The position numbers and the translations under genes are program-made. A model generated the notes under the pieces. It had not been told where the DNA came from. It searched no databases and saw only the letters and a list, made by a program, of their open reading frames with translations. This document shows, piece by piece, positions 550 to 13,888 of a stretch of 32,165 nucleotides of DNA. The stretch is from Patescibacteria group bacterium (GTDB taxonomy: Bacteria > Patescibacteriota > Minisyncoccia > Phycocordibacterales > UBA918). Each line of letters starts with the position of its first letter. The stretch's first letter is position 1. Where the stretch lies: NCBI GenBank assembly GCA_019745315.1, contig JAIETH010000014.1, positions 1 to 32,165 of the forward strand, read 5' to 3'.

Positions 550-1086
550 TTACGAATAAGACGGCGATGCTTCTTTCCTATCATCTTCCGCCGCGACATA
601 GCGCGCAAGTGCGTACAAAAGACTCGAGAGACGGTTGAGGTAAGTAAGTGATTCGTCGGACACCCTTTGTTTCACACTTGGTGCAACGATTGAGCGTTCT
701 GCACGTCGAGCTACTGTCCGGGCATAGTCAAGAAAAGCTGATAACTTTGTTGCGCCCGGAATTACAAAAGCATGAGGATTCCCAATAAGAACCTCTACTT
801 TATTAATGACAGCTTCGATACCCTGCACTCGTGTTGTATCAATATGCTTGTTGGACCCAGCAAGTTCTGCTTGAACAATAAAGAGTGCTTCTTGTGCACT
901 ACGGATTTCATCCTGCAAAGATATGTCGCCGACTGTACCAGTAGCATACACTCTGCAGATACCTAAAAGGGAATTTAACTCGTCTAATGTACCAAGAGCT
1001 TCATACACGGGATGGTCCTTTGAGAACCGTTCTTTAGTACCAAAGAGTCCGGAAGTTCCACTGTCTCCTTTGCGAGTGTATAACAT
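550..1086 (-). CDS. pduO: Cob(I)alamin adenosyltransferase, PduO type
   Basis: N-terminus MLYTRKGDSGTSGLFG, EALGTLDELNS motif, C-terminal RTVARRAERS...YLNRLSSLLYALAR. Confidence 0.88.
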   Translation of the reverse strand: MLYTRKGDSGTSGLFGTKERFSKDHPVYEALGTLDELNSLLGICRVYATGTVGDISLQDEIRSAQEALFIVQAELAGSNKHIDTTRVQGIEAVINKVEVLIGNPHAFVIPGATKLSAFLDYARTVARRAERSIVAPSVKQRVSDESLTYLNRLSSLLYALARYVAAEDDRKEASPSYS

Positions 1087-1092
1087 ACTTAT

Positions 1093-3429
1093 TTAGCGTG
1101 TTACGGCCAGTTCGGATGCTTCGACAGACATGGTGTCATCAATCTCACAAGTCCCACCTGCACAAGCGAGCTCACGCTTCTGTTCAGTCTCATCAGCATG
1201 CTCGTATGCAAGCAATTTTGAATAATCAATGACGGGCAATTTTGTCATCATCTCATCATATTGTTTTTTAGTGATCGTCTCATACGGCGCGAGTTGATAG
1301 ACGTGGTCAAATCGGGGTAGAAATGAAAGTCCGCCGATGATGTCCCAATTTTTCTGCACCCAATCGACGACACTAATCCATTCGTCCTCTCCAACAGATA
1401 TCGTTGCAGATGGATTATGTTCTGTGTAGTTGAGTTTGATAAGCTTCCAGTATTCAAGCTGCTCGAGTGCGGAGAAATCATCTTTGAATTTTGCATTTCC
1501 TGGAGATTCGATCGGGAATTCTAGGACAAAAGTTGTTGCGTTCTCTATCGATTGTCCGACTTCAGGATGATACGGAACACCCTGATCTTTCATCATTTTG
1601 AACAGTGAATCGGTCGCTGATATGCGAACACGTCGAATGTAATATTTCGCGTGACGCGGATGAATACCCGATGAGCAGTTGAATGTCTGCGAAACGGTAC
1701 CTGAAGGCTTCACAGCGGTAACAGAGAGAGAAGGTTTAATTCCAAACCGCTTCGCGTACACCTCATTTGTTTTGACGGCCATATCACGCATTGCTTGCAT
1801 GGTTTTTGGATCACGTACTGTCGCGCAATCCCATTGCCCAGTAACAGACACTCCTAAAAGACGCTCTTCTTCACAATGCTTAGCCCAATCATTGGAGATG
1901 TAGTTAAACTTCGACAAAGAAGATTGATATGTACCAAGCAGTGACGCTAGTCGTGCCTTCCTTACTAAGTTTTCGTGTGAATCGTCGGCACGTGCAATAA
2001 CTTCCGAAAGATTACAAAATTGTTTCGACTGCAGAATGATCTCACCGCAGGGATTTGTACCGATAGGACCCTGTACTACGCCATCGTCACCAATGAATCC
2101 AACTTTCTTGAAGTATTTTTCACGACGTTTTGGTAAAGTGTTTGCCAGTGACCCTCGATTGAATATCCCTCGTTCACCAGAACCGCTTTTCATGAGTGCA
2201 ACCCATTCCTCCATAAGCTCGTTGCTAGTCGGTCTCATTCCATATACAGCTGAATTGTTAGCAACCGAGCGATGGGGTTCTGTAAGGAAAAATTGACCCT
2301 TTTTTGCGTCGCGCATGTCAACATCATCGAGATCAGATAGGCTGATCATGGCGGTCCGTCGCACACCTCCGGATACCACGCATTCACCAATTTTGCAGAT
2401 AATATCGTGAACATCGATCGGTCGCAGTCTTCTGCCTTGACGCTTAAGTATCTTTTCACGAGAAAATACCAGAAGTGATCGAAGTGGCTCCGGCCCAGAA
2501 GCTTTACCTCCCATCGTCTTCAATCGCGCACCTGCTGGACGAATATGTGAGAAGTCAAATTCAATATCCTTTCCTTCGTACCATGTTTTAAGTCCAAGTG
2601 TTAAGGCATCGCACCAACCTTCCTTTGAGTCCAAAACGATATGTTTTGAGACTTTCTTTGACGTCTGTTTTTGTATCTGCGGTAGCTGTTCAATGTTTTG
2701 ACTCTCAACGGCAAATCCAACACCACACCCTTGCATAGAGAGGTACATGATTTCCGCAAAATCCTCTAACGCGGTTGGTGCAATGAAGGTGCAGTTATAT
2801 GCGCAAGTGTTGCAGCGACGCGCTGGATCTCCCGCAAACTGCATAAGGCGCATCGAAGGCATGATTTCTTGTTTGAGGATCGCTTCCTGCACCTCTGCAT
2901 ACTCTTCCTCGGATAGTTTTTTACCGAGATTTTCACGCATGAAAGCGATATACCTATCGACAGTCTCAATCCAAGTCTCACGACGCTTCTCAACCTCAAT
3001 CCAACGAGCATATGTACGGAGATAAACGAATTCACCTAAAGGATTGCCTTCGAAATATTTCTTACTCTCAGATGATAGAGTGCGGACATGTTCGGGAATT
3101 TCTCCTATCTCAAATCGTTTCTCTGTTCGTTCTGCACGGTACAGGATGTATGCCTTGGCAGATTTAAGAAATCCCAACAACATTAGTCCTGTCTCCACTT
3201 CGTCTTGCACCCCCTCAACAGTGGGGATGAAGTGTTCGTCAGCAAGTTTTTTAGCCATGAGCCGCTTCTCAACTGCACGGGCAACCGTCTCTGCCGCATT
3301 TTCTTCAAATTCGCTAACGGATTTCATTGCTTTACTGATTGCGGTTACAATCTTTTCTCTTTGAAAAGGAGCCGTGGTACCGTTACGTTTCGTAATGATG
3401 GCAAGTTTTGAAGAAGTTGATTGTGACAT
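1093..3429 (-). CDS. nrdJ: Adenosylcobalamin-dependent class II ribonucleotide reductase with N-terminal ATP-cone
   Basis: 778 aa; ATP-cone-like N-terminus; MPSMRLMQFAG, NTCAYNCTF, SGSGERGIFNR, GTNPCGEIIL; C-terminal CAGGTCEIDD. Confidence 0.88.
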   Translation of the reverse strand: MSQSTSSKLAIITKRNGTTAPFQREKIVTAISKAMKSVSEFEENAAETVARAVEKRLMAKKLADEHFIPTVEGVQDEVETGLMLLGFLKSAKAYILYRAERTEKRFEIGEIPEHVRTLSSESKKYFEGNPLGEFVYLRTYARWIEVEKRRETWIETVDRYIAFMRENLGKKLSEEEYAEVQEAILKQEIMPSMRLMQFAGDPARRCNTCAYNCTFIAPTALEDFAEIMYLSMQGCGVGFAVESQNIEQLPQIQKQTSKKVSKHIVLDSKEGWCDALTLGLKTWYEGKDIEFDFSHIRPAGARLKTMGGKASGPEPLRSLLVFSREKILKRQGRRLRPIDVHDIICKIGECVVSGGVRRTAMISLSDLDDVDMRDAKKGQFFLTEPHRSVANNSAVYGMRPTSNELMEEWVALMKSGSGERGIFNRGSLANTLPKRREKYFKKVGFIGDDGVVQGPIGTNPCGEIILQSKQFCNLSEVIARADDSHENLVRKARLASLLGTYQSSLSKFNYISNDWAKHCEEERLLGVSVTGQWDCATVRDPKTMQAMRDMAVKTNEVYAKRFGIKPSLSVTAVKPSGTVSQTFNCSSGIHPRHAKYYIRRVRISATDSLFKMMKDQGVPYHPEVGQSIENATTFVLEFPIESPGNAKFKDDFSALEQLEYWKLIKLNYTEHNPSATISVGEDEWISVVDWVQKNWDIIGGLSFLPRFDHVYQLAPYETITKKQYDEMMTKLPVIDYSKLLAYEHADETEQKRELACAGGTCEIDDTMSVEASELAVTR

Positions 3430-3455
3430 ACAAGAGGATGCGTTATATTGATAGT

Positions 3456-3477
3456 GGTCTATGCATTATAATATAGA
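3456..3477. promoter_or_regulatory. Candidate operator/promoter between divergent nrdJ and arsR-like genes
   Basis: Inverted repeat GTCTAT-N10-ATAGAC spanning a TATAAT in the 57-bp intergenic region. Confidence 0.4.
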
Positions 3478-3486
3478 CGAGTATCT

Positions 3487-3852
3487 ATGAATAAGAAATC
3501 ATTGGGGACAGAAGATAAGACGACAGAATCAGCTCACGGTAAAGAGAAAAAAACGTATCCACGACCCTCATGGGTCAAGAGTGGTGAAGAAGAGCTTTGT
3601 CCTGACTGCTTTAAGGTGGTAGGTGATCGTAGTCGTTATAACCTAGTCTGCATGCTAGGAAAGTCCAAAGAAGGCATAACTGTGGGTCAATTGACCAAAA
3701 TGGTTAAACTCACTCAACCAACAGTCACACATCATCTACAAGTCCTTAAGTCAGTGGACGCAGTCGAGATTGAACCGCGTGGTCGAGAACGAGTATATAG
3801 ACTTAATCGGGACGCACATTGTTTTGAGGAGTGCCAGATTCCATATCAGTAA
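3487..3852 (+). CDS. ArsR-family winged-helix transcriptional regulator
   Basis: 121 aa; CPDCFKVVGDRSRYNLVCMLGKSKEGITVGQLTKMVKLTQPTVTHHLQVLKSVDAVEIEPRGRERVYRL = ArsR HTH; Cys/His at the C-terminus (HCFEEC). Confidence 0.85.
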   Translation: MNKKSLGTEDKTTESAHGKEKKTYPRPSWVKSGEEELCPDCFKVVGDRSRYNLVCMLGKSKEGITVGQLTKMVKLTQPTVTHHLQVLKSVDAVEIEPRGRERVYRLNRDAHCFEECQIPYQ

Positions 3853-4077
3853 TAAATAGAGTTTACTAGCCAAACCATTTCACCACGCTTTTTTTAAATA
3901 TTTTCTAAGGCCTGATAATCAAGTGTGGGGTATCTTGGACTCGAACCGACGAAGCGGCTTGAAATATAGCTTTCCTGATTTCGAGGAAAATAGCAAAAGT
4001 TCGAGCCCATGACTCGTTCTTAAAATGCTTTGGAAAATATAGCGATTTTAAGAGTCTCGATAGCTCTCACATGGCTG

Positions 4078-4148
4078 CTGCCAGACTAGGATTCGAACCT
4101 AGATAAACGGATTCAGAGTCCGTTGTCCTACCATTAGACGATCTGGCA
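4078..4148 (-). tRNA. tRNA-Gln(CTG)
   Basis: Acceptor TGCCAGA/TCTGGCA, anticodon stem ACGGA/TCCGT with loop CTCTGAA, T-loop TTCGAAT; no encoded CCA. Confidence 0.9.
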
Positions 4149-4209
4149 ATGAAAAAAGCGCTTTCGCGCGAGCGTACTGTACCACACTTTTTCTCGCCAA
4201 ACCATCTCT

Positions 4210-5868
4210 CTAATCCTTCTTCTGCGCTCCTACTTTTGCCGCTTTAATGAACGCAGTGAAGAGTGGGTGCGGCGCAAGCGGTCGCGCGAGAAGTTCGGGA
4301 TGAAACTGTGTTCCAAGAAAAAACGGGTGTTTTCCTACCGGCAACTCCCCTATCTCCATAAGCGTACCATCCGGTGATTTGCCTGAGAATACAAAGCCTG
4401 CTTTTTCGAGATCAGGAATATATATAGGATTTACTTCATAGCGATGACGATGACGCTCAACAATCTCTGCTGCTCCATACGCCTTTCGCGCAATGGTGTC
4501 ATTTTTTAATTCACATACATAACTTCCGAGACGCATGGTGCCACCGTAATCTCCCTTAGCCATTTTTTCTTTTTGATCTGGCATGATGTCAATGAGAGGG
4601 TGCGCTGCTTTTGGATCAATCTCAACAGTATTTGCGCCTTTTAATTTCAAGACATTCCGTGCATATTCAATCACTGCGAGCTGAAGCCCATAGCAGAGTC
4701 CGAAGTAAGGGATTTTTTGTGTGCGTGCGTATTCAATCACACGAATCTTTCCTTCAATACCTGTCTCACCAAACCCTCCAGGAATAAGGATGCCGTCGTA
4801 TTTTTTAAGAGAACCAAGCTCTTTAGCGCTTGCATCAAATTTCTTTGAGTTCACAAATTCAATGACTGGTTTTACTCCAGCTACGTATGAAGAAAACTTC
4901 AAAGCCTCAATGACTGAGATATATGAATCAGAAAGAACAAAGTCTCCTGAATCAAAATATTTACCTACAATTGCAATGCGTACTTCTTTCTTTACGTTTC
5001 GCGCACGACGTACGAAGTCTTCCCATGGAGCAAAGTCTGGCTTTTTGCAATTAAGAGCGAGCATATCACAGAGATACTCGCCAAGCTTATCTTTTTCAAA
5101 ATTAAGTGGTACTTCATAAATACTCTTTACGTCTGGTGCTGCAATCACATGCTCTCTCCGCACATTACAAAACAACGCAATCTTTTCTTTTCGCTTTTCA
5201 TCAATTGGGACGGCGCTGCGAGCGATGATAAAGTCTGCAAATACTCCTGCACTATTGAGGGTCCGCGCGGCATACTGTGTCGGCTTTGTCTTCATCTCAC
5301 CCAAGGAACCTGGTACTGGCAAATAACTCACTAATACAACAGCAACATCAGCAGGACACTTACTCTTCATCATGCGCGCAGCTTCAAGGAAAAGAATATT
5401 TTGATACTCTCCTACTGTTCCTCCGATTTCAACAGTTGTAACATCAGCGTCAGCCTTCTCTGCTGCAGCCTCAATACGCCTAATAACCTCAAGAGGGATA
5501 TCAGGTACCACCTCTACGTTCTTCCCTTTGTATTCAAGATTGCGCTCTTTTCTGATGACATCAAGGTACACACTTCCTGTCGTCATGTAGTTAATAGCAG
5601 GAAGCGAGGTATTGAGGAAACGCTCATAATTTCCCATATCCTGGTCAGTCTCCAATCCATTTTCAAGCACAAATACTTCACCATGCTCAGTTGGATTCAT
5701 CGTCCCTGCATCCACGTTGATATATGGGTCGATCTTAAGAGAGGTAACTTTAAGCCCACGAGAAAGTAAAATGCGTCCGATAGACGCAGACGCAATTCCT
5801 TTACCGACACCGGACATTACCCCTCCAACAATAAAAATATATTTCCGCGTGTTTTGTTTTTTTGCCAT
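4210..5868 (-). CDS. pyrG: CTP synthase
   Basis: 552 aa; KYIFIVGGVMSGVGKGIASASIG, KIDPYINVDAGTMNP, GQL amidotransferase domain GLCYGLQLAVIEYARNV. Confidence 0.96.
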   Translation of the reverse strand: MAKKQNTRKYIFIVGGVMSGVGKGIASASIGRILLSRGLKVTSLKIDPYINVDAGTMNPTEHGEVFVLENGLETDQDMGNYERFLNTSLPAINYMTTGSVYLDVIRKERNLEYKGKNVEVVPDIPLEVIRRIEAAAEKADADVTTVEIGGTVGEYQNILFLEAARMMKSKCPADVAVVLVSYLPVPGSLGEMKTKPTQYAARTLNSAGVFADFIIARSAVPIDEKRKEKIALFCNVRREHVIAAPDVKSIYEVPLNFEKDKLGEYLCDMLALNCKKPDFAPWEDFVRRARNVKKEVRIAIVGKYFDSGDFVLSDSYISVIEALKFSSYVAGVKPVIEFVNSKKFDASAKELGSLKKYDGILIPGGFGETGIEGKIRVIEYARTQKIPYFGLCYGLQLAVIEYARNVLKLKGANTVEIDPKAAHPLIDIMPDQKEKMAKGDYGGTMRLGSYVCELKNDTIARKAYGAAEIVERHRHRYEVNPIYIPDLEKAGFVFSGKSPDGTLMEIGELPVGKHPFFLGTQFHPELLARPLAPHPLFTAFIKAAKVGAQKKD

Positions 5869-5871
5869 AAA

Positions 5872-6792
5872 CTAGTAGCGAAGGTAGCGAGCGATAGCGA
5901 GGATACTTGAAACCATACCGAGCATAATACCTGATCCCATAATAACAAGGAAGATATGCCCAAAGTCCTGTACGTAGTACTGGAAGAGATCAAGCTGGAA
6001 AAAAGCGCGAGTACCATCCGAGAGCCAGAGCGTAATAGGATAAAACAGAAGCAGGGTTAGTATCGCAGCAACCGCTCCATACATAATACCTTGGAGTATA
6101 AACGGTCCACGGATAAACATGTTACCTGCCCCCACAAGGCGCATCACCGTAATCTCTTCGCGTGAAGTATAGATCGCAAGACGAATCGTATTAAAGGTTA
6201 TGAGTATAGACGCAACGATAAGAATAATAGTTGCAAAGAAGCTGACGCGCTCTATAGCATTAATAATTGCAGTGAGCTTATCGATGGCACCTTTATTAGT
6301 GTCGTAGTTTATGCTATCGATAAACCCTTTTTCAATAGGAGTTGTCGCATTTTGCTCATCGAGAAAAGCCGCGATACCTTCATACTGCGAGGTTTCCTTG
6401 GTGCGAACACGAAGCGTTGCACCAAGCGGATTATCTCCAAGCTCCTCAATAGCCTGAGCAGTTGTCTCGTCTCCCTCGTGACGCTCTTCAAATGCAATAA
6501 GTGCTTCTTCACGAGATATATAGGTAACCGCCTCTACCTCAGGCAACGCTTCGAGTGATTTTTTAAGTGCAAGGATTTCATCTGGCACTGCGTCCGTTGT
6601 GAAATATACGTTTATATCAACCTTATCTTGAATTTGAGCGAGTGATACATTGAGAAGCTGACTCAAGAAAAGAACAGAGCCAACAACAAACAGAGTTACC
6701 ATCATTACGAAGATTGCAGCGAGTGAGACGAAGGCATTCCGCCAAAAGCCTACAAATCCTGATCGCACCGTTCGCTTGAATGAAGTCCACAT
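5872..6792 (-). CDS. ftsX: Cell division protein FtsX
   Basis: 306 aa, 4-TM FtsX architecture, VDINVYFTTDA...EALPEVEAVTYISREEAL; adjacent to ftsE. Confidence 0.92.
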   Translation of the reverse strand: MWTSFKRTVRSGFVGFWRNAFVSLAAIFVMMVTLFVVGSVLFLSQLLNVSLAQIQDKVDINVYFTTDAVPDEILALKKSLEALPEVEAVTYISREEALIAFEERHEGDETTAQAIEELGDNPLGATLRVRTKETSQYEGIAAFLDEQNATTPIEKGFIDSINYDTNKGAIDKLTAIINAIERVSFFATIILIVASILITFNTIRLAIYTSREEITVMRLVGAGNMFIRGPFILQGIMYGAVAAILTLLLFYPITLWLSDGTRAFFQLDLFQYYVQDFGHIFLVIMGSGIMLGMVSSILAIARYLRY

Positions 6793-6798
6793 AAAATA

Positions 6799-7476
6799 TT
6801 ATAGAGAATACTTACCATCCATATCATCGCGCACAACACGTCCTCCGTCCATAGTGAGTACGCGGCGTCCTAGTGCATCGATCACACCCTTATTATGTGT
6901 GGTCATAATTACTGTAGTACCGAGATCGTTAATCTTTTTAAGAATTTGAACCACCTCATATGTTGCAATAGGATCAAGGTTCCCTGTCGGCTCGTCAGCA
7001 ATAATCAGATCTGGCTGATTTACAATAGCGCGCGCGATTGCAACACGCTGCTTCTCTCCTCCTGAAAGTTCGCTTGGAAAATTCCACATCTTGTCACCGA
7101 GATCGACGAGCTCAAGTGCCTGCGGCACATTCTCTCGAATCTCCTCATCACTTCGACCATTCGCCTCCATCGCAAATGCAATATTTTCGTATGCTGTCTT
7201 ATTAGAAAGAAGTTTGAAATCTTGAAAAACAGTACCGATCTTTCGACGGTACTGTGGCAAGCGACCACGAGGAATAGTGTGTACGTTCAAAGATTCAAAA
7301 AAGACCGCGCCATCAGTCGGTTTATCTTCAGCGATAAGCATCTTGATGAGCGTGGTTTTTCCTGCACCTGAATGACCTACAATAGAAATAAACTCACCTG
7401 GCGCAACCTTGAAGGTTACGTCACGAAGAGCTGCAGAGTTGTCATATACTTTTGAGACTTTTTCGAAATAGATCAT
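6799..7476 (-). CDS. ftsE: Cell division ATP-binding protein FtsE
   Basis: Walker A GHSGAGKTTL, signature LSGGEKQRVAIARAI, Walker B LIIADEPTGNLD. Confidence 0.94.
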   Translation of the reverse strand: MIYFEKVSKVYDNSAALRDVTFKVAPGEFISIVGHSGAGKTTLIKMLIAEDKPTDGAVFFESLNVHTIPRGRLPQYRRKIGTVFQDFKLLSNKTAYENIAFAMEANGRSDEEIRENVPQALELVDLGDKMWNFPSELSGGEKQRVAIARAIVNQPDLIIADEPTGNLDPIATYEVVQILKKINDLGTTVIMTTHNKGVIDALGRRVLTMDGGRVVRDDMDGKYSL

Positions 7477-7508
7477 AGAAAAGACACCTTCTTTGGAACC
7501 ATACTATT

Positions 7509-8381
7509 CTACTCCACCGAAGGTGTTGCGTCTAGAAAAGCTGTTAAATCTCCTTCAAGGACACGAGTCACATCACGCACCTCCACGTTAGTCCTGTGAT
7601 CTTTCACAAGCTGGTATGGGTGCAGTACATACGAGCGAATCTGGCTTCCCCACTCGATTTTCATCGTCTTTTCAACAGACAATCCTTTGAGTTCACGTTT
7701 TCGCTGTTCTTCTGTAAATGCATAGACCTTTCCTGCGAGAAGTGCGAGCGCTCGTTCACGATTTTGCTGCTGACTTCGCTCCGTAGAAACATGAACCGAA
7801 ATGTGTGTCGGTATATGAGTAATACGCACTGCGGTCTCTCGTTTATTCACGTTCTGTCCACCAGCACCACCCGAGCGAGCAAAAGAAACCTCGAGCGCAT
7901 CTTCAGGAAGCTCAATTTCTTTTGTTGAATCAAATTTTGGCACAACCTCCACAAGGACAAACGATGTCTGCCGCTTCCCTCCTGCATTAAATGGCGAAAT
8001 GCGCACAAGCCTATGAACACCTGATTCATTTTTAAGAAGTCCGTATGCCCCTTTGCCTCGAATCTCAAACATAATATTGCGATACCCTCCGTGATCATTT
8101 TGATTTTCATCAATAATTGCAGTTTGCCATGAACGACCCGCTCCAAAACCCTGATACATCGCAAGTAGCATGCGCGCAAAGTCTTCAGCATCGTCTCCTC
8201 CAGCTCCAGCAACAATAGTCACCACGGCATGATTGTTGTCGTATTTTTCTTTTCCTGCCCCTGAGTCTTTAAGCTCTTGAAGCTCTTTAATCATCGCTTG
8301 CGCCGCACGAGGATCGCTCCAAAAATCCGCCTGCTGCATGGCGGTTTCTATTTCTGTTATGCGTATAGCTGTATCATCCAT
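7509..8381 (-). CDS. prfB: Peptide chain release factor 2 (short domain 1)
   Basis: GGAGGQNVNKRETAVR (GGQ), SPF tripeptide in VRISPFNAGG, WGSQIRSYVLHPY; only 290 aa. Confidence 0.92.
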   Translation of the reverse strand: MDDTAIRITEIETAMQQADFWSDPRAAQAMIKELQELKDSGAGKEKYDNNHAVVTIVAGAGGDDAEDFARMLLAMYQGFGAGRSWQTAIIDENQNDHGGYRNIMFEIRGKGAYGLLKNESGVHRLVRISPFNAGGKRQTSFVLVEVVPKFDSTKEIELPEDALEVSFARSGGAGGQNVNKRETAVRITHIPTHISVHVSTERSQQQNRERALALLAGKVYAFTEEQRKRELKGLSVEKTMKIEWGSQIRSYVLHPYQLVKDHRTNVEVRDVTRVLEGDLTAFLDATPSVE

Positions 8382-8392
8382 AACGAGAAGGT

Positions 8393-8716
8393 TTAATAGC
8401 TCGCTGTATCTCTCGGTAGAGTCTTTATTTTATTTTGAACTTCTTCAATAAAACTCTTTAAATTTTCGTTACCAAGAGAAACGAGTAATCCCTCTTCAAG
8501 CTCTTCCCAGTCTTCACGGGAAACCTCTTTTTGTTGTTGTTTTTTAAGCACATCGTCAATGTCCTTAAGTGACCCTTCAATGTCTCTAAGACGACGAACA
8601 AGAAGATGCAAGAAACCATCAGCCTCTTCTTGTGTTTTTAAATTCTCTATGACTTCTTTAATGCGTTTTTCATTAAGAAACTCAGCAGACTCTTTTTTAG
8701 GTGGTAGCTCACTCAT
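8393..8716 (-). CDS. Hypothetical protein, about 107 aa, charged/helical
   Basis: ORF from internal ATG (MSELPPKKESAEF...); the longer ORF start at 8899 lies in tRNA-derived repeats and is probably not used. Confidence 0.5.
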   Translation of the reverse strand: MSELPPKKESAEFLNEKRIKEVIENLKTQEEADGFLHLLVRRLRDIEGSLKDIDDVLKKQQQKEVSREDWEELEEGLLVSLGNENLKSFIEEVQNKIKTLPRDTASY

Positions 8717-8740
8717 ACCTCTATAGTACCACTTCTTTCC

Positions 8741-9108
8741 TTGAGCTATCTCCCAGGTGAGCATGCAAATATATCGCTTCGCTCTTTGAGCCATCTCCCA
8801 GGATTGTCCTGACGGTTCGTAATTCGCTTTGCTCATAACGACCGCGGGACACGGCTCGCGGTCGCAAGCGACATCGCTCCGCCGTTCAATCCCTATCAAT
8901 GCTTCGCATTGATGAGCTGTCTCTACGCTTCGCTTGAGCCATCTCCCAGGATTGAAACTTACAGTTTCAGTACGGGTTGTCGTTTTTTTACTTCACTTCG
9001 TTCGTAAAAAATCTGGCAACCCCTTCAATCCCTGCTCCTGTTGTAAAAACAACAGTTACGCGATATGCCTCAATATCGCTTCGCTCTTTGAGCCATCTCC
9101 CAGGATTG
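8741..9108. repeat. Array of partial tRNA-Thr 3'-end copies separated by hairpin-rich spacers
   Basis: 36-bp exact direct repeat atatcgcttcgctctttgagccatctcccaggattg at 8771-8806 and 9073-9108; further copies at 8741-8757 (diverged) and 8925-8956; the last copy is the 3' end of the intact tRNA-Thr. Confidence 0.9.
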
Positions 9109-9163
9109 AACTGGGGACCTCATCCTTACCATGGATGCGCTCTACCGACTGAGCTAAGATGGC
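9091..9163 (-). tRNA. tRNA-Thr(GGT)
   Basis: Acceptor GCCATCT/AGATGGC, anticodon stem CATCC/GGATG, loop ATGGTAA. Confidence 0.92.
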
Positions 9164-9212
9164 TGAAATCAAATTGCCATATCATGCAATCTGAATCTTT
9201 GCTGTAAAGAAC

Positions 9213-9325
9213 AAAAAAGTGAGAGGGCGGATCAGCCTGATGACGACTCCACCAAATGGTGAAGGACAGCGGCCATTGGAAGCTCTGTCACTGACCCGCC
9301 CTCTGACGCCGAGTATTCGGTGGCG
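9213..9325 (-). ncRNA. Candidate structured RNA or elaborate terminator, family unknown
   Basis: 14-bp closing stem 9222-9235/9291-9304 (one GU), internal hairpins including CTTCACC-ATTT-GGTGGAG, flanking CGCC/GGCG hairpin, U-run on the minus strand just after the stem. Confidence 0.4.
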
Positions 9326-9404
9326 ACCAAAAAACAATACCAGAAAGTACTTTGTTTTGCGAATAACTATATTCGTACACTGTGACGCATGATATAAATA
9401 TTCT

Positions 9405-10013
9405 ATGAACACATTTTTCACTAAAGATCGACTCGTGCTCAGCCTATTTACTTCAGGCTACATAGTCGCTTCAAGTATCTGGTTTATTGCACAGCGTAAT
9501 TATGAATTTATTTGGTACGTCGCTACCATGCTCGTAATTGTCGGAATCCTCCTTGCAACATATCGAGCATCCCAACTCCCTAACCCTCTCTTGTGGTTGC
9601 TGTCTATTTGGGGGTTACTCCATGTACTTGGCGGAGGAATATTTATAGATGGTCACTCACTCTACGCACAAATACTTTACCCGTTTCATGTTGATGGTGA
9701 CTTCACAATCCTTAAATACGATCAGGTTGTACACGCGTATGGATTTGCTGTGGCAGCTCTCGTGCTCCACAACATACTCTCGCGCCTTGCGCCCACAATG
9801 GGAGTATTTGGCAGAATTATGTTCCCTGCGCTCGGCTCAATGGGACTTTCAGTTGTGAATGAAATTATCGAATTTATTGCAGCGCTCTCTCTTCCAAATA
9901 CCTGGGTTGGTGGATATTACAATCTTTCACTTGACCTCGTAGCAAACACAATTGGCGCATTTGGTGCTGTGATTATCTTTGAGATTATTCGATCTTTTCG
10001 GAAAAACTTCTAA
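9405..10013 (+). CDS. Polytopic membrane protein, DUF2238/YjdF-like
   Basis: 202 aa, about 6 hydrophobic segments, YDQVVHAYGFAVAALV...NEIIEFIAAL...YYNLSLDLVANTIGA. Confidence 0.6.
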   Translation: MNTFFTKDRLVLSLFTSGYIVASSIWFIAQRNYEFIWYVATMLVIVGILLATYRASQLPNPLLWLLSIWGLLHVLGGGIFIDGHSLYAQILYPFHVDGDFTILKYDQVVHAYGFAVAALVLHNILSRLAPTMGVFGRIMFPALGSMGLSVVNEIIEFIAALSLPNTWVGGYYNLSLDLVANTIGAFGAVIIFEIIRSFRKNF

Positions 10014-10062
10014 ATTGAAAACATACTTGCACTGTATTACCATCTTAAACACAGTGCAGTAT

Positions 10063-10135
10063 GCCATTGTAGCTCAGTTGGTAGAGCAGGTGCTTCGTAA
10101 GCGTCAGGTCGTCGGTTCAATCCCGACCAATGGCT
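10063..10135 (+). tRNA. tRNA-Thr(CGT)
   Basis: Acceptor GCCATTG/CAATGGC, anticodon loop TTCGTAA, T-loop TTCAATC. Confidence 0.9.
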
Positions 10136-10174
10136 CAAAAACAGAGGAAATTCTCTTATGGTAAACTTCTGATA

Positions 10175-10711
10175 ATGAAAATCCTTATCGCTACCCCTCT
10201 CTATCCTCCTGAAATAGCACCCATTGCTCGATACGTAAAAGAGCTGGCAACACGACTTACAACCACTCACAGTATCACCATTTTGACGTATGGATATATT
10301 CCAGAAAAAATAGAAGGAGTAAAAATTATAACTATCGACAAACACGCTCCACGCTTAGTGCGAATTGCGCGTTTTTTCTTTGCTCTTTTCAAAATAAAAG
10401 CAGATAGAATCTATTCCCTAAATGGTGCATCAGTCGAACTTCCTGTCTCTCTCCACAGCTTCCTTAGGTCGACTCCCATAGTGTTTTGCATAGGTGATAC
10501 ACAGGCATCTCTCCATGCGCAGAAGAGCTTTTGGCACAGCTCACTTGAAAAATTAATGAGACATCGTTCTCAAACGCAATCCACCGTACCTAATGACAAA
10601 CCTGAGATACTACCTTTTGAAGCATATCCAACACAGTCTCTCGCGAAATGGGAGAATGAGTGGATTGCTCATATCAAAGAAGTAATGAAGCTTTTTTCGT
10701 ATGACACATAA
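10175..10711 (+). CDS. Glycosyltransferase GT4-like N-terminal domain only (truncated)
   Basis: MKILIATPLYPPEIAPIARYVKELATRLTTTHSITILTYG resembles a GT-B N-terminal domain, but only 178 aa; the annotated ORF start at 10130 lies inside the tRNA. Confidence 0.55.
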   Translation: MKILIATPLYPPEIAPIARYVKELATRLTTTHSITILTYGYIPEKIEGVKIITIDKHAPRLVRIARFFFALFKIKADRIYSLNGASVELPVSLHSFLRSTPIVFCIGDTQASLHAQKSFWHSSLEKLMRHRSQTQSTVPNDKPEILPFEAYPTQSLAKWENEWIAHIKEVMKLFSYDT

Positions 10712-11816
10712 CACCCTGCCATCCTCAAGAGAAAATTGGGAGCGCCTCTATCGAGAGGATATGGAGCGCATCCGTCCCCTCTTGACCAAACACGAACTTG
10801 CTCTAGACCCCGAACAACCGCATACGCAAGGCGAACGATTTTTAATGCAGGCTGTTACCACAGAGAGCGGACGGAAGCTGATCTTGCTTGGGACAACAAA
10901 AAACGGAAAACGTATTGTTATTAAGATTACTAAAGATCCTCAAGGAAAAAAAGAACTGGTGCACGAGCGAGCATGTCGCACACTTCTTAAGAAAATTCGT
11001 TTTGCGTATGATGTTTTTTTCTCCCCAGAAGAAATACTGTTTATAGAAGAAAAGGAATACCTCATTGCCGTCTATGTTTTCATAGAACAAGAATGCGCGT
11101 TTCTTGAACGACCAATTGAAAAACAGTTTGCTTTTGCACTTAGAGCGTTTAAGGCACAGGAAAGCGCTCATGCAACCACATGGGCACATAGAAAGCTTAT
11201 AGAAAATAGCTTTACGCGCGCAACTTCAAATACCTATATACAAACCTTCAAAGAGTTTAAAGAGAAGACAATCGCCGCGCACGCGACCAATACTGACTTA
11301 TCAAACCTCTATGCGCGAACCCTTGAAGAATTAGAGAGGAATAAAGAAACGATTGAGCAATACACGGACTTCCTCACACACGTTGACTTCGTGCCGCATA
11401 ACTTTCGCATACAAAACAATACCATCTACCTTCTCGATCACTCATCACTTCGCTTTGGAAACAAATATGAAGGGTGGGCTCGTTTTCTTAACTTCATGGT
11501 GCTGTATAACAAACCGCTTGAAGAAGCACTCGTTTCCTATGTGAAAAATAATCGCTCTCCTGAAGAGACTCTATCTCTCCACCTCATGCGTCTCTATAGG
11601 CTTGGTGAAATTATCTGGTATTACACACGCACCCTTGAGCGCTCAGAAGGCAACCTACTCGCCCTTAATACAAAACGCATATCTTTTTGGTCAAAAGTAC
11701 TTGAAGCAGCACTACGCCATGAGTCAGTGAATGAAGAAATGATTACCGAGTACAAAAAAAGCCGCGATCTACTTCGCAGTGATGATGAAAAACAACGGCA
11801 AGTTGGACTTCATTAA
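10701..11816 (+). CDS. Aminoglycoside phosphotransferase/choline-kinase-like protein
   Basis: HVDFVPHNFRIQNNTIYLLDHSS resembles the HxDxxxxN catalytic loop and LDxxx of the APH fold. Confidence 0.55.
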   Translation: MTHNTLPSSRENWERLYREDMERIRPLLTKHELALDPEQPHTQGERFLMQAVTTESGRKLILLGTTKNGKRIVIKITKDPQGKKELVHERACRTLLKKIRFAYDVFFSPEEILFIEEKEYLIAVYVFIEQECAFLERPIEKQFAFALRAFKAQESAHATTWAHRKLIENSFTRATSNTYIQTFKEFKEKTIAAHATNTDLSNLYARTLEELERNKETIEQYTDFLTHVDFVPHNFRIQNNTIYLLDHSSLRFGNKYEGWARFLNFMVLYNKPLEEALVSYVKNNRSPEETLSLHLMRLYRLGEIIWYYTRTLERSEGNLLALNTKRISFWSKVLEAALRHESVNEEMITEYKKSRDLLRSDDEKQRQVGLH

Positions 11817-11827
11817 AAGACGAGAAT

Positions 11828-13006
11828 CTATTCACCGAGAATTTTAGCAAATACTTTCCGTCGCATATCAGTCGCTATCATATCCCAATTAAATTTCTCT
11901 ACGACCATATCACGCGCATATGTAGTTACTTCTTCTACTTTTTGAGGATTTTCAAGAATTTCAAGAACAGCGCGAGCTATAGCCTGAGGATTATCTTTCT
12001 CTACCACCCATGCTGTTTGTGGCACGTCGGGATTATGCTTTGTATCAAAAATAAATTCAGCTAAACCTCCCTCTTGGGTTGCTACAACAGGAAGGCGCGA
12101 CGCCATTGCAGAAAGAAATGCGTTGCCAAGACCCTCTGACCTGCTTGGTGCAACAAAAATATCAGAGATTTTTCGATACATCGTGACCTCCGTCCGGTCA
12201 ACTTGCCCAACAAATATAACGCGAGATTCAAGTCCTAATTCGCTCACCAAATTCTTTAGCATTTCTTCATCAGTACCACCTCCAACAATTAAAAAATGAA
12301 TATTTTCTGGGAGAAGTAGAAGCGCACGAATCACATCGTTGTGCGCTTTCTGATATTCAAGACGTGCAGTATTCACTAAATATACAATCCCTTCCTTTTT
12401 TCCTACTTTCTTTTTCCATTCCTCCACCTCGGCATCTGAAACACTATCAGCAATATCACGAGGATTAGCTCCATTATATACAAGCTCAATCTGCCCCTTA
12501 AACCCCCTCTTGCGAGGCCATTCTGCTAGCGAGCGAGATATTGCTTGTACGAGAGACGCATGTCGAAAGCCATAATCAAGAATCGGCAATAATGGCTTTA
12601 TAAAACGACGACCAAACACTTTATTGTACGGATCTCCATCCTGGAGGGTCAGCATGTATGGCGTGCGTACACCTACAAGGCGCATGACTGCGATCGGGAA
12701 AAGCATGTAGGTCATCATTGACCACACTGCATCTATTTTATATTTCCAACAGAAATATATACCTTGTAGTATCGAAAGCGGGATAAAAAGAATTTTAGAA
12801 AGATATGACGGACCAATACCAACGCGATGCACGATGACATTCCCAATCTTCTCGGTGCGAAGGTCACGCGCATCAAAACGAAGCGTTAGCATGTGAAACT
12901 CAATATCAGAAGGATCGATTCTGTCGGTAATTTCTTTAATAGCTGCTTCTGCCCCACTTACATGTCGAGGGTAATATGCGAGCGAAAAAATAAGTATTTT
13001 CTTCAT
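11828..13006 (-). CDS. Glycosyltransferase family 4
   Basis: FSLAYYPRHVSGAEAAIKEI, YLVNTARLEYQKAHNDVIRAL, DIFVAPSRSEGLGNAFLSAMASRLPVVATQEGGLAE. Confidence 0.9.
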   Translation of the reverse strand: MKKILIFSLAYYPRHVSGAEAAIKEITDRIDPSDIEFHMLTLRFDARDLRTEKIGNVIVHRVGIGPSYLSKILFIPLSILQGIYFCWKYKIDAVWSMMTYMLFPIAVMRLVGVRTPYMLTLQDGDPYNKVFGRRFIKPLLPILDYGFRHASLVQAISRSLAEWPRKRGFKGQIELVYNGANPRDIADSVSDAEVEEWKKKVGKKEGIVYLVNTARLEYQKAHNDVIRALLLLPENIHFLIVGGGTDEEMLKNLVSELGLESRVIFVGQVDRTEVTMYRKISDIFVAPSRSEGLGNAFLSAMASRLPVVATQEGGLAEFIFDTKHNPDVPQTAWVVEKDNPQAIARAVLEILENPQKVEEVTTYARDMVVEKFNWDMIATDMRRKVFAKILGE

Positions 13007-13009
13007 AGA

Positions 13010-13888
13010 CTATCCCTGAGACCTATTTTCTTCAATATATTCTTTGAGTGTTTTTTTCTGTTGCCACCCGAGCGCTTCAAGTTTTGAGGTCAGTGCAGCG
13101 CCAGATGATCGCGTACTTTGTGTGCTTGGCATCATCGATACGGTGCACCCAAACATTTCTGCAACGTCAAGCAGTGAGTAGACTTCTTGAGCACTTATCG
13201 CATATTCATCAGCCTCACCTTTCTCCCCAATATACATAAGTCCTGAAACAGTATCTTCTACATGGGTAAATGCACGAGTCTGAGTACCCGGAGCATTCAC
13301 CGGACAAACTTCACCTTTTAATGAGCATTGTTTAAAAACCTCTATAACGGTCCCATACCCTGCCTCCCAATCAGCGCGCTCCCCTGGTCCGTATACATTG
13401 TAGAAGTAGGCAATTGAATATGGTAGCTCATACCATCGCCCATAGTTGTGTACCAACTCGCTGAGACACGCTTTCGCCCATGAGTAAGGTGATCTATCCC
13501 GCCCAAGAACACCGTCTTCTCGGTCATCCGCAAACTTTGTTGAAGAACCAGCGTAGACAAGCTTACATTTTTTTTCTCGCCAATATTCCAACACTGCAAG
13601 CGTCCCTGCAATATTTAAATCAAAAACTGTTTCAGGCTCAGAGAGACTTTTTGCCACACGCGAATATTCTCCTAAGTGATAGATAAGATCTGGGATTTCT
13701 GGCACCAACGCTGCAATATCTTTTGTATGACCTTCACGATACTCAACACCAGAAACATGATTTTCTTTTGAGCCCGTAAAGTAGTTATCCAGAGACATAA
13801 CAGAATGTCCGTCTGCAACAAGGCGAGCACATAGATGCGACCCGATAAACCCCGCTCCCCCAGTGACAAGAATAAGCTTTTTTTCCAT
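13010..13888 (-). CDS. NAD-dependent epimerase/dehydratase (SDR, GalE-like)
   Basis: LVTGGAGFIGSHLCARL Rossmann motif, SPYSWAKACLSELV (YxxxK-like), NVYGPGE. Confidence 0.9.
   Translation of the reverse strand: MEKKLILVTGGAGFIGSHLCARLVADGHSVMSLDNYFTGSKENHVSGVEYREGHTKDIAALVPEIPDLIYHLGEYSRVAKSLSEPETVFDLNIAGTLAVLEYWREKKCKLVYAGSSTKFADDREDGVLGRDRSPYSWAKACLSELVHNYGRWYELPYSIAYFYNVYGPGERADWEAGYGTVIEVFKQCSLKGEVCPVNAPGTQTRAFTHVEDTVSGLMYIGEKGEADEYAISAQEVYSLLDVAEMFGCTVSMMPSTQSTRSSGAALTSKLEALGWQQKKTLKEYIEENRSQG

Follow-up and report, generated by a model that had tools for sequence, protein, structure and literature searches.

Structured non-coding units, putatively mobile, at the 3' ends of tRNA genes in one order of Patescibacteria

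Downstream of the tRNA-Thr(GGU) gene of a Patescibacteria group bacterium lies an array of hairpin-rich repeats, which belongs to a real family of structured non-coding units that is widespread within one bacterial order. Mobility is the most likely explanation for these units, whose arms would be rewritten to fit every target. They look like a small element of a type not described before, which adapts itself afresh wherever it inserts. As for the array itself, we give somewhat better than even odds to its being two copies and a remnant of a non-coding, hairpin-rich, putatively mobile element family that targets transcript 3' ends. The window analyzed is a stretch of 32,165 nucleotides, with the following features in and next to the array.

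9090–9163, minus strand: tRNA-Thr(GGU), the intact target gene (ARAGORN; Rfam RF00005, 63.8 bits)
Between 9108 (C56) and 9107 (A57), minus strand: putative T-loop cut point in tRNA-Thr(GGU)
8934–9089, minus strand: unit 1 (type A), with flank, reversed tail and hairpin, core A and tail copy 1 (direct-repeat spacing 154; R1 match of 85.7 bits)
9065–9073, minus strand: unit 1, imperfect reversed copy of the acceptor 3' strand of the tRNA (read from sequence)
9038–9055, minus strand: unit 1, small hairpin P3 within the reversed tail (CTGTTG/CAACAG; fold)
9024–9033, minus strand: unit 1, reversed T-arm 3' half, which is the 5' strand of P0 (AGGGATTGAA on the minus strand; P0 in R1)
8974–9023, minus strand: unit 1, core hairpin P1 with CCA/GA internal loop (covariation in 20 sequences; 96.7% of P1 cells paired)
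8954–8970, minus strand: unit 1, core hairpin P2 with conserved loop TGTAA, preceded by GTACTG (100% of P2 cells paired; double changes in 4/5 pairs)
8934–8953, minus strand: tail copy 1, tRNA positions 57 to the 3' end (repeat analysis)
8785–8933, minus strand: unit 2 (type C), with flank, reversed tail and hairpin, core C and tail copy 2 (direct-repeat spacing 148; type C alignment)
8914–8922, minus strand: unit 2, reversed acceptor strand, imperfect (sequence)
8895–8913, minus strand: unit 2, small hairpin P3 (ATCAATGC/GCATTGAT; fold)
8885–8894, minus strand: unit 2, reversed T-arm 3' half (sequence; repeat family D2)
8807–8884, minus strand: unit 2, core C, two hairpins with GTCAGGAC at the tail copy (21/37 pairs hold via double changes, six sequences)
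8785–8806, minus strand: tail copy 2, running on to 8771 as a 36-bp exact repeat of 9073–9108
8741–8757, minus strand: third tail copy, truncated, one mismatch
7509–8381, minus strand: prfB (peptide chain release factor 2), the syntenic neighbor that marks the empty site in relatives (TIGR00020, 340 bits)

The array lies on the minus strand, 3' of the tRNA gene, and consists of a 154-bp and a 148-bp unit in tandem, with the truncated third tail copy after them; its tail copies start 45, 148 and 154 bp apart. Each unit runs in the same order: flank, reversed acceptor 3' strand, small hairpin P3, reversed T-arm 3' half (ending in GAA), core, and a forward tail that begins at T-loop position 57. 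The exact repeat (8771–8806 and 9073–9108) consists of tail copy 2 plus ∼16 bp of the tRNA's own downstream flank, and hence the direct duplication extends beyond the end of the gene. The two spacers are unlike each other in sequence, although TTCAATCCC faces the tail in both, and they represent distinct core types (A and C) within a single system. In core A (unit 1), hairpin P1, which has a CCA/GA internal loop, is followed by GTACTG and by hairpin P2, whose loop is TGTAA; core C (unit 2) is formed by two other hairpins and ends in GTCAGGAC. The units encode no proteins. All the features listed in the earlier note (tail copies, 36-bp repeat, unit lengths, differing spacers, inverted T-loop strings and hairpins) were found again, with the reading direction corrected to the minus strand, downstream of the tRNA. 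Two of the names it had offered, a tRNA-derived palindromic element and a miniature cassette array, suit this anatomy well. Between the array and prfB there is also a 107-residue open reading frame (8393–8716, minus strand), for which no homologue was seen in 19 relatives' loci and no match in NCBIfam. Upstream of the tRNA gene, a 93-nt inverted repeat at 9217–9309 folds strongly (z = −3.5 and −4.5); neither 47 relatives nor Rfam yielded a match for it.

Both units fold much better than shuffled sequence (z = −5.4 and −4.3; 0/200 shuffles). In a single strand, the reversed T-arm pairs with the tail copy to form P0, which yields a three-way junction of P0, P1 and P2. R1 is a covariance model of the type A (unit 1) core. 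Double changes occur in 23 of the 26 pairs of type A across 20 sequences, and the covariation score is 0.604, compared to 0.201 for shuffles and at most 0.181 when the partners are slid. P0 pairs vary because the tRNAs vary, so it is P1 and P2 that provide independent structural evidence. Type C, an assignment made by eye, covaries as well. G-U pairs account for 2.1% of P1/P2 pairs versus 4.8% of tRNA stem pairs at the same loci (Fisher P = 2e-5). This deficit is a modest hint that the folded molecule may be DNA; it is compatible with, but not proof of, a folded single-strand site recombined on one strand, and gives modest support to the mobile reading.

Good folding of the units as RNA and strong covariation are also what one would see if the units were functional RNAs, a reading that is the main rival to mobility and that we consider the less likely of the two. 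Here, P1, P2 and P3 would be protein-binding hairpins in the trailer of the tRNA transcript, and the arm would match the tRNA because pairing is selected: the reversed arm would pair either with the tail of the tRNA itself or with the copy downstream of it, acting as a three-strand switch or a processing decoy. Against this, a terminator often lies ahead of the unit, and the core persists where the tail copies are often degraded or lost. An Rfam search of the array at gathering and relaxed thresholds returned the tRNA alone above the gathering score, the best other match having an E value of 0.14. The earlier note knew of no named family with this layout, and this stands, in that we found no Rfam match and, in a non-exhaustive search of open-licence PMC papers, no earlier description.

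To assess how general the arrangement is, we analyzed the source genome (771,341 bp in 15 contigs, 98.8% complete), which has 36 tRNA genes. Twelve of these are followed within 400 nt by a copy of their own tail with at most 4/17 mismatches (permutation maximum 5), and 16 by their own T-arm, inverted, with at most 1/11 mismatches (permutation maximum 11). One or the other is found at 20/36, compared to a maximum of 11 in 5000 label permutations. As the same anatomy recurs genome-wide to this extent, the Thr array is not a product of chance. The covariance search of this genome gave 29 matches. Of the best 15, 14 follow a tRNA on its strand at a distance of no more than 300 bp, and the remaining one lies behind a 13-kb island at tRNA-Trp. 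Copies are not confined to tRNA genes. Those at the 3' ends of two protein genes, which we take to be groEL and ftsZ from their encoded C-termini, without database search, obey the same rule, T – rc(T) – core – T, and in another family the 3' end of a protein gene (L160) carries a unit of this kind. Units behind protein genes lie on the same strand as the upstream transcript. Their existence goes against a role as tRNA-specific RNA and suggests that fold-back copying acts on the end of a transcript or on the corresponding DNA. Type A cores were also seen 5' of two tRNA-Glu genes and of tRNA-Arg(GCG), on the strand opposite to the tRNA (L023 1223–1314, L055 1316–1407 and, in the source genome, L146 623–694).

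We then extended the search to relatives. R1 matches were found in 47/49 genomes of the same family, with 0 to 66 copies per genome, and in 11/382 genomes of a phylum sample, all but one of these from the same order; top scores reach 94 bits. Since comparable units occur in dozens of other genomes, an assembly artifact is unlikely. Of 96 distinct matches, 67 lie in sense orientation within 300 nt behind a tRNA (median 65; 31 anticodon types), three lie antisense at tRNA 5' ends, and 26 have no tRNA within 300 nt, although part of this set was picked at tRNA genes and the tRNA-adjacent proportion is therefore biased upward. The covariance search of the source genome is free of this bias. Presence in nearly all genomes of the family, and sense orientation close behind the gene, are what a functional trailer RNA would predict; variation from 0 to 66 copies among related genomes is not. 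Other arrangements also involve tRNA genes. Just upstream of tRNA-Thr(GGU), L005 and L014 (both ∼1310–1430) contain a copy of the tRNA 5' part split by a type A core; this copy ends in anticodon-arm sequence, which suggests that the anticodon arm is used besides the T-loop. Furthermore, tRNA-Asp genes (G032:C11 2781–3076; G016:C19 17992–18312) and tRNA-Thr genes (G001:C7 34887–35164; G007:C6 48355–48639) are split near the anticodon loop by ∼200–240 bp, possibly by introns or by insertions of related elements.

The arms of a unit belong to its site. Inverted arms correspond to the adjacent tRNA, with at most 1/11 mismatches, in 49/65 units (permutation mean 7.1, maximum 17), and tail copies, with at most 3/16 mismatches, in 39/65 tRNA-adjacent units. 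Cores behave differently. For just 3/66 cores, the nearest core lay in another genome behind a tRNA of the same isotype (2.3 expected), versus 13/66 for which it lay at another tRNA of the same genome (4.0 expected; maximum 12 in 500 shuffles), and cores that are 93% identical were found behind tRNA-Cys (G048), tRNA-Leu (G042) and tRNA-Asp (G009). Across the family, these nearest-core counts lend no support to vertical inheritance of the core with its tRNA. That the core type is independent of tRNA identity also speaks against a functional trailer RNA.

Occupancy varies among genomes as well. At tRNA-Asp, the site is empty in L202, L204, L206, L207, L209 and L213, and is otherwise occupied by type A (L194–L198) or, with types B, C and D being assigned by eye, by type B (L200, L217) or type C (L208, L214, L218, L221); the arms of the units correspond to each genome's own tRNA. 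Within one genus, the core has likely been inherited with tRNA-Asp: the unit in G037, G038 and G043 looks vertically inherited, its arms having changed jointly with the tRNA. Such tracking counts in favor of a functional RNA, as selection for pairing would produce it as well. Between the related genomes G017 and G021, arms and tails at tRNA-Asp agree almost exactly, whereas the terminator loop, core and downstream genes all differ, and hence one clean insertion does not account for the difference. At the site of our array, comparison of 19 relatives' loci by tblastn places prfB next to tRNA-Thr(GGU) in 14, and the spacer between the two genes is ∼60–85 bp in L003, L007, L008 and L019 versus 709 bp in the source genome. 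The possibility, raised in the earlier note, of an array fixed in all relatives and with no other genomic copies is contradicted by these variable sites and by the copies throughout the genome. Near-exact direct duplications that take in the flank or the whole terminator mark the freshest units, those at tRNA-Val (L087), tRNA-Asp (L096) and tRNA-Met (L081). No transposition was seen between near-identical genomes, which weighs against mobility.

These observations can be accommodated by the following scheme. The inserted form is T – rc(T) – core – T, where T starts at position 57 of the T-loop, spans the acceptor strand and in many cases continues into the flank or terminator; the core is drawn from a few structured types, independent of tRNA identity, and units stack in tandem. 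Insertion would occur above all at the tRNA T-loop, in the orientation of the transcript. The core would be copied to the new site, while the arms would be made anew from the target by fold-back copying. In this process, a strand that has reached the end of T would reverse course and copy T backward as far as the T-loop, then incorporate the core and resume at T. The active form may be a folded single DNA strand, since stacking of P2 on P0, which the folded unit allows, would leave the strand continuous at the C56/R57 junction, a feature shared with folded recombination sites. If so, the units would be geneless mobile elements that re-program their ends at each insertion by copying the target both ways around a conserved structured core, a proposal that we put forward tentatively, at a little under even odds. 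We know of no precedent for a mode of insertion in which an element tailors its arms to any tRNA.

Large gene-bearing elements are also found at the ends of tRNA genes in this genome. A 12.8-kb island lies between tRNA-Trp and its unit (L107 1626–14442, contig C1 of the source genome) and encodes MgtC, an ion channel, a large serine recombinase, a DNA methylase, an Avs4 defense protein (1911 bits) and two unknown proteins. A second island of ∼13 kb, with a related layout (large serine recombinase, methylase, helicase), lies between tRNA-Glu(TTC) and its unit (L146 ∼900–13570, also C1). Both share the right-end motif GTCACTTTTGTCACTTTTT followed by a degenerate tail, and hence were apparently inserted at the tRNA tail, displacing the unit. 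In G001, tRNA-Arg(TCG) is followed by two identical core copies of 80 bp that enclose an AAA_21 ATPase and RloB-like gene pair of 2 kb, resembling a gene cassette (L101 2806–4718).

Given such neighbors, the units might themselves be scars or att sites of integrase-borne islands that target tRNA genes, that is, attL/attR remnants after loss of cargo, much as the earlier note had suggested in speaking of successive att sites. The duplication of the tail does start in the T-loop, where integrases also act, and the two islands and the G001 pair, flanked by identical units, are in keeping with the idea. Nonetheless, we think it very improbable. The reversed tail copy present in every unit is not a product of ordinary att duplication, the units are geneless, their cores are structured families rather than random cargo, and all isotypes carry the same cores. 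In both islands, moreover, the unit lies outside the island's own boundary; with islands located between tRNA and unit, and having a right-end motif of their own, the units are not their ends. The islands and the G001 pair look like separate elements at the same hot spots, and they offer no proof that the units are their att sites.

A dedicated tyrosine integrase, which the att-site proposal would call for, was not found: the search for tyrosine recombinases elsewhere in the genomes revealed mostly one Xer-like protein of Xer length per family genome, including genomes with 0 or 1 copies, and none in two draft genomes of the family. Reverse transcriptase (PF00078) is absent from the source genome (G000), G007 and G042, all of high copy number. 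The Y1 (PF01797)/RAYT transposase is absent from the source genome (26 copies) and from G007 (45 copies), and only 1 of 20 Y1 regions has a unit, that one adjoining tRNA-Gln. The enzyme need not be a dedicated integrase, reverse transcriptase or REP-type (Y1) transposase of the same genome. These presence tests revealed no cognate enzyme, which weighs against mobility; the activity may come from a host enzyme or from template switching during replication. Taken further, the latter could dispense with an element altogether, if slippage or template switching at quasi-palindromes behind tRNA genes caused hairpins to grow, self-correct and duplicate in tandem. No enzyme would be required, and perfected inverted repeats and identical tandem units (L085) are typical products of such events. 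We nevertheless give this explanation hardly any credence, as it does not explain core motifs (GTACTG, TGTAA and the CCA/GA loop) conserved across genomes and loci, with model scores of up to 94 bits.

If the mobile reading is correct, ends that re-program themselves would allow a single core to colonize all tRNA genes of a genome and leave them intact, and the question arises as to which host enzyme acts. If the units are functional instead, more than half of the tRNA genes in the source genome would be followed by a tRNA-specific RNA structure of a kind not described before. Both outcomes are of importance for bacteria with reduced genomes, where annotation pipelines are currently blind to these units.

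The units share traits with several known systems. Like REP/BIME sequences and their RAYT (Y1) partners, they are short, structured extragenic palindromes, present in many copies downstream of genes and in dimeric arrangements. Unlike REP/BIMEs, they have arms derived from the target and a site in the tRNA T-loop; in addition, the source genome and G007 lack RAYT despite 26 and 45 unit copies, and no units lie beside the RAYT genes tested, except for one at tRNA-Gln. They resemble integron attC sites in being imperfect hairpin sites of conserved structure that form tandem arrays, with successive units sharing the cleavage point, but lack IntI, the GTTRRRY core and almost all cargo genes, and their receptor is a tRNA gene. 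With tRNA-targeting integrative elements they have in common the duplication of the tRNA 3' end from the T-loop on; they differ in being ∼150 bp long, with no integrase gene and with a reversed tail copy inside each, and in that the same cores use all isotypes. A retroelement would need a reverse transcriptase (PF00078), which G000, G007 and G042 lack. Rickettsia palindromic elements and bacterial MITEs are non-coding structured repeats of 100–200 bp in reduced genomes. Our units are likewise short, non-coding, structured repeats of reduced genomes. The palindromic elements and MITEs are reviewed in PMC10969869. Compared to MITEs, the units have no constant terminal inverted repeats, and their arms follow the local target rather than each other. 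As in MITEs, there is a target-site duplication, which in the units reaches into the flank, for example at tRNA-Val (L087) and tRNA-Met (L081).
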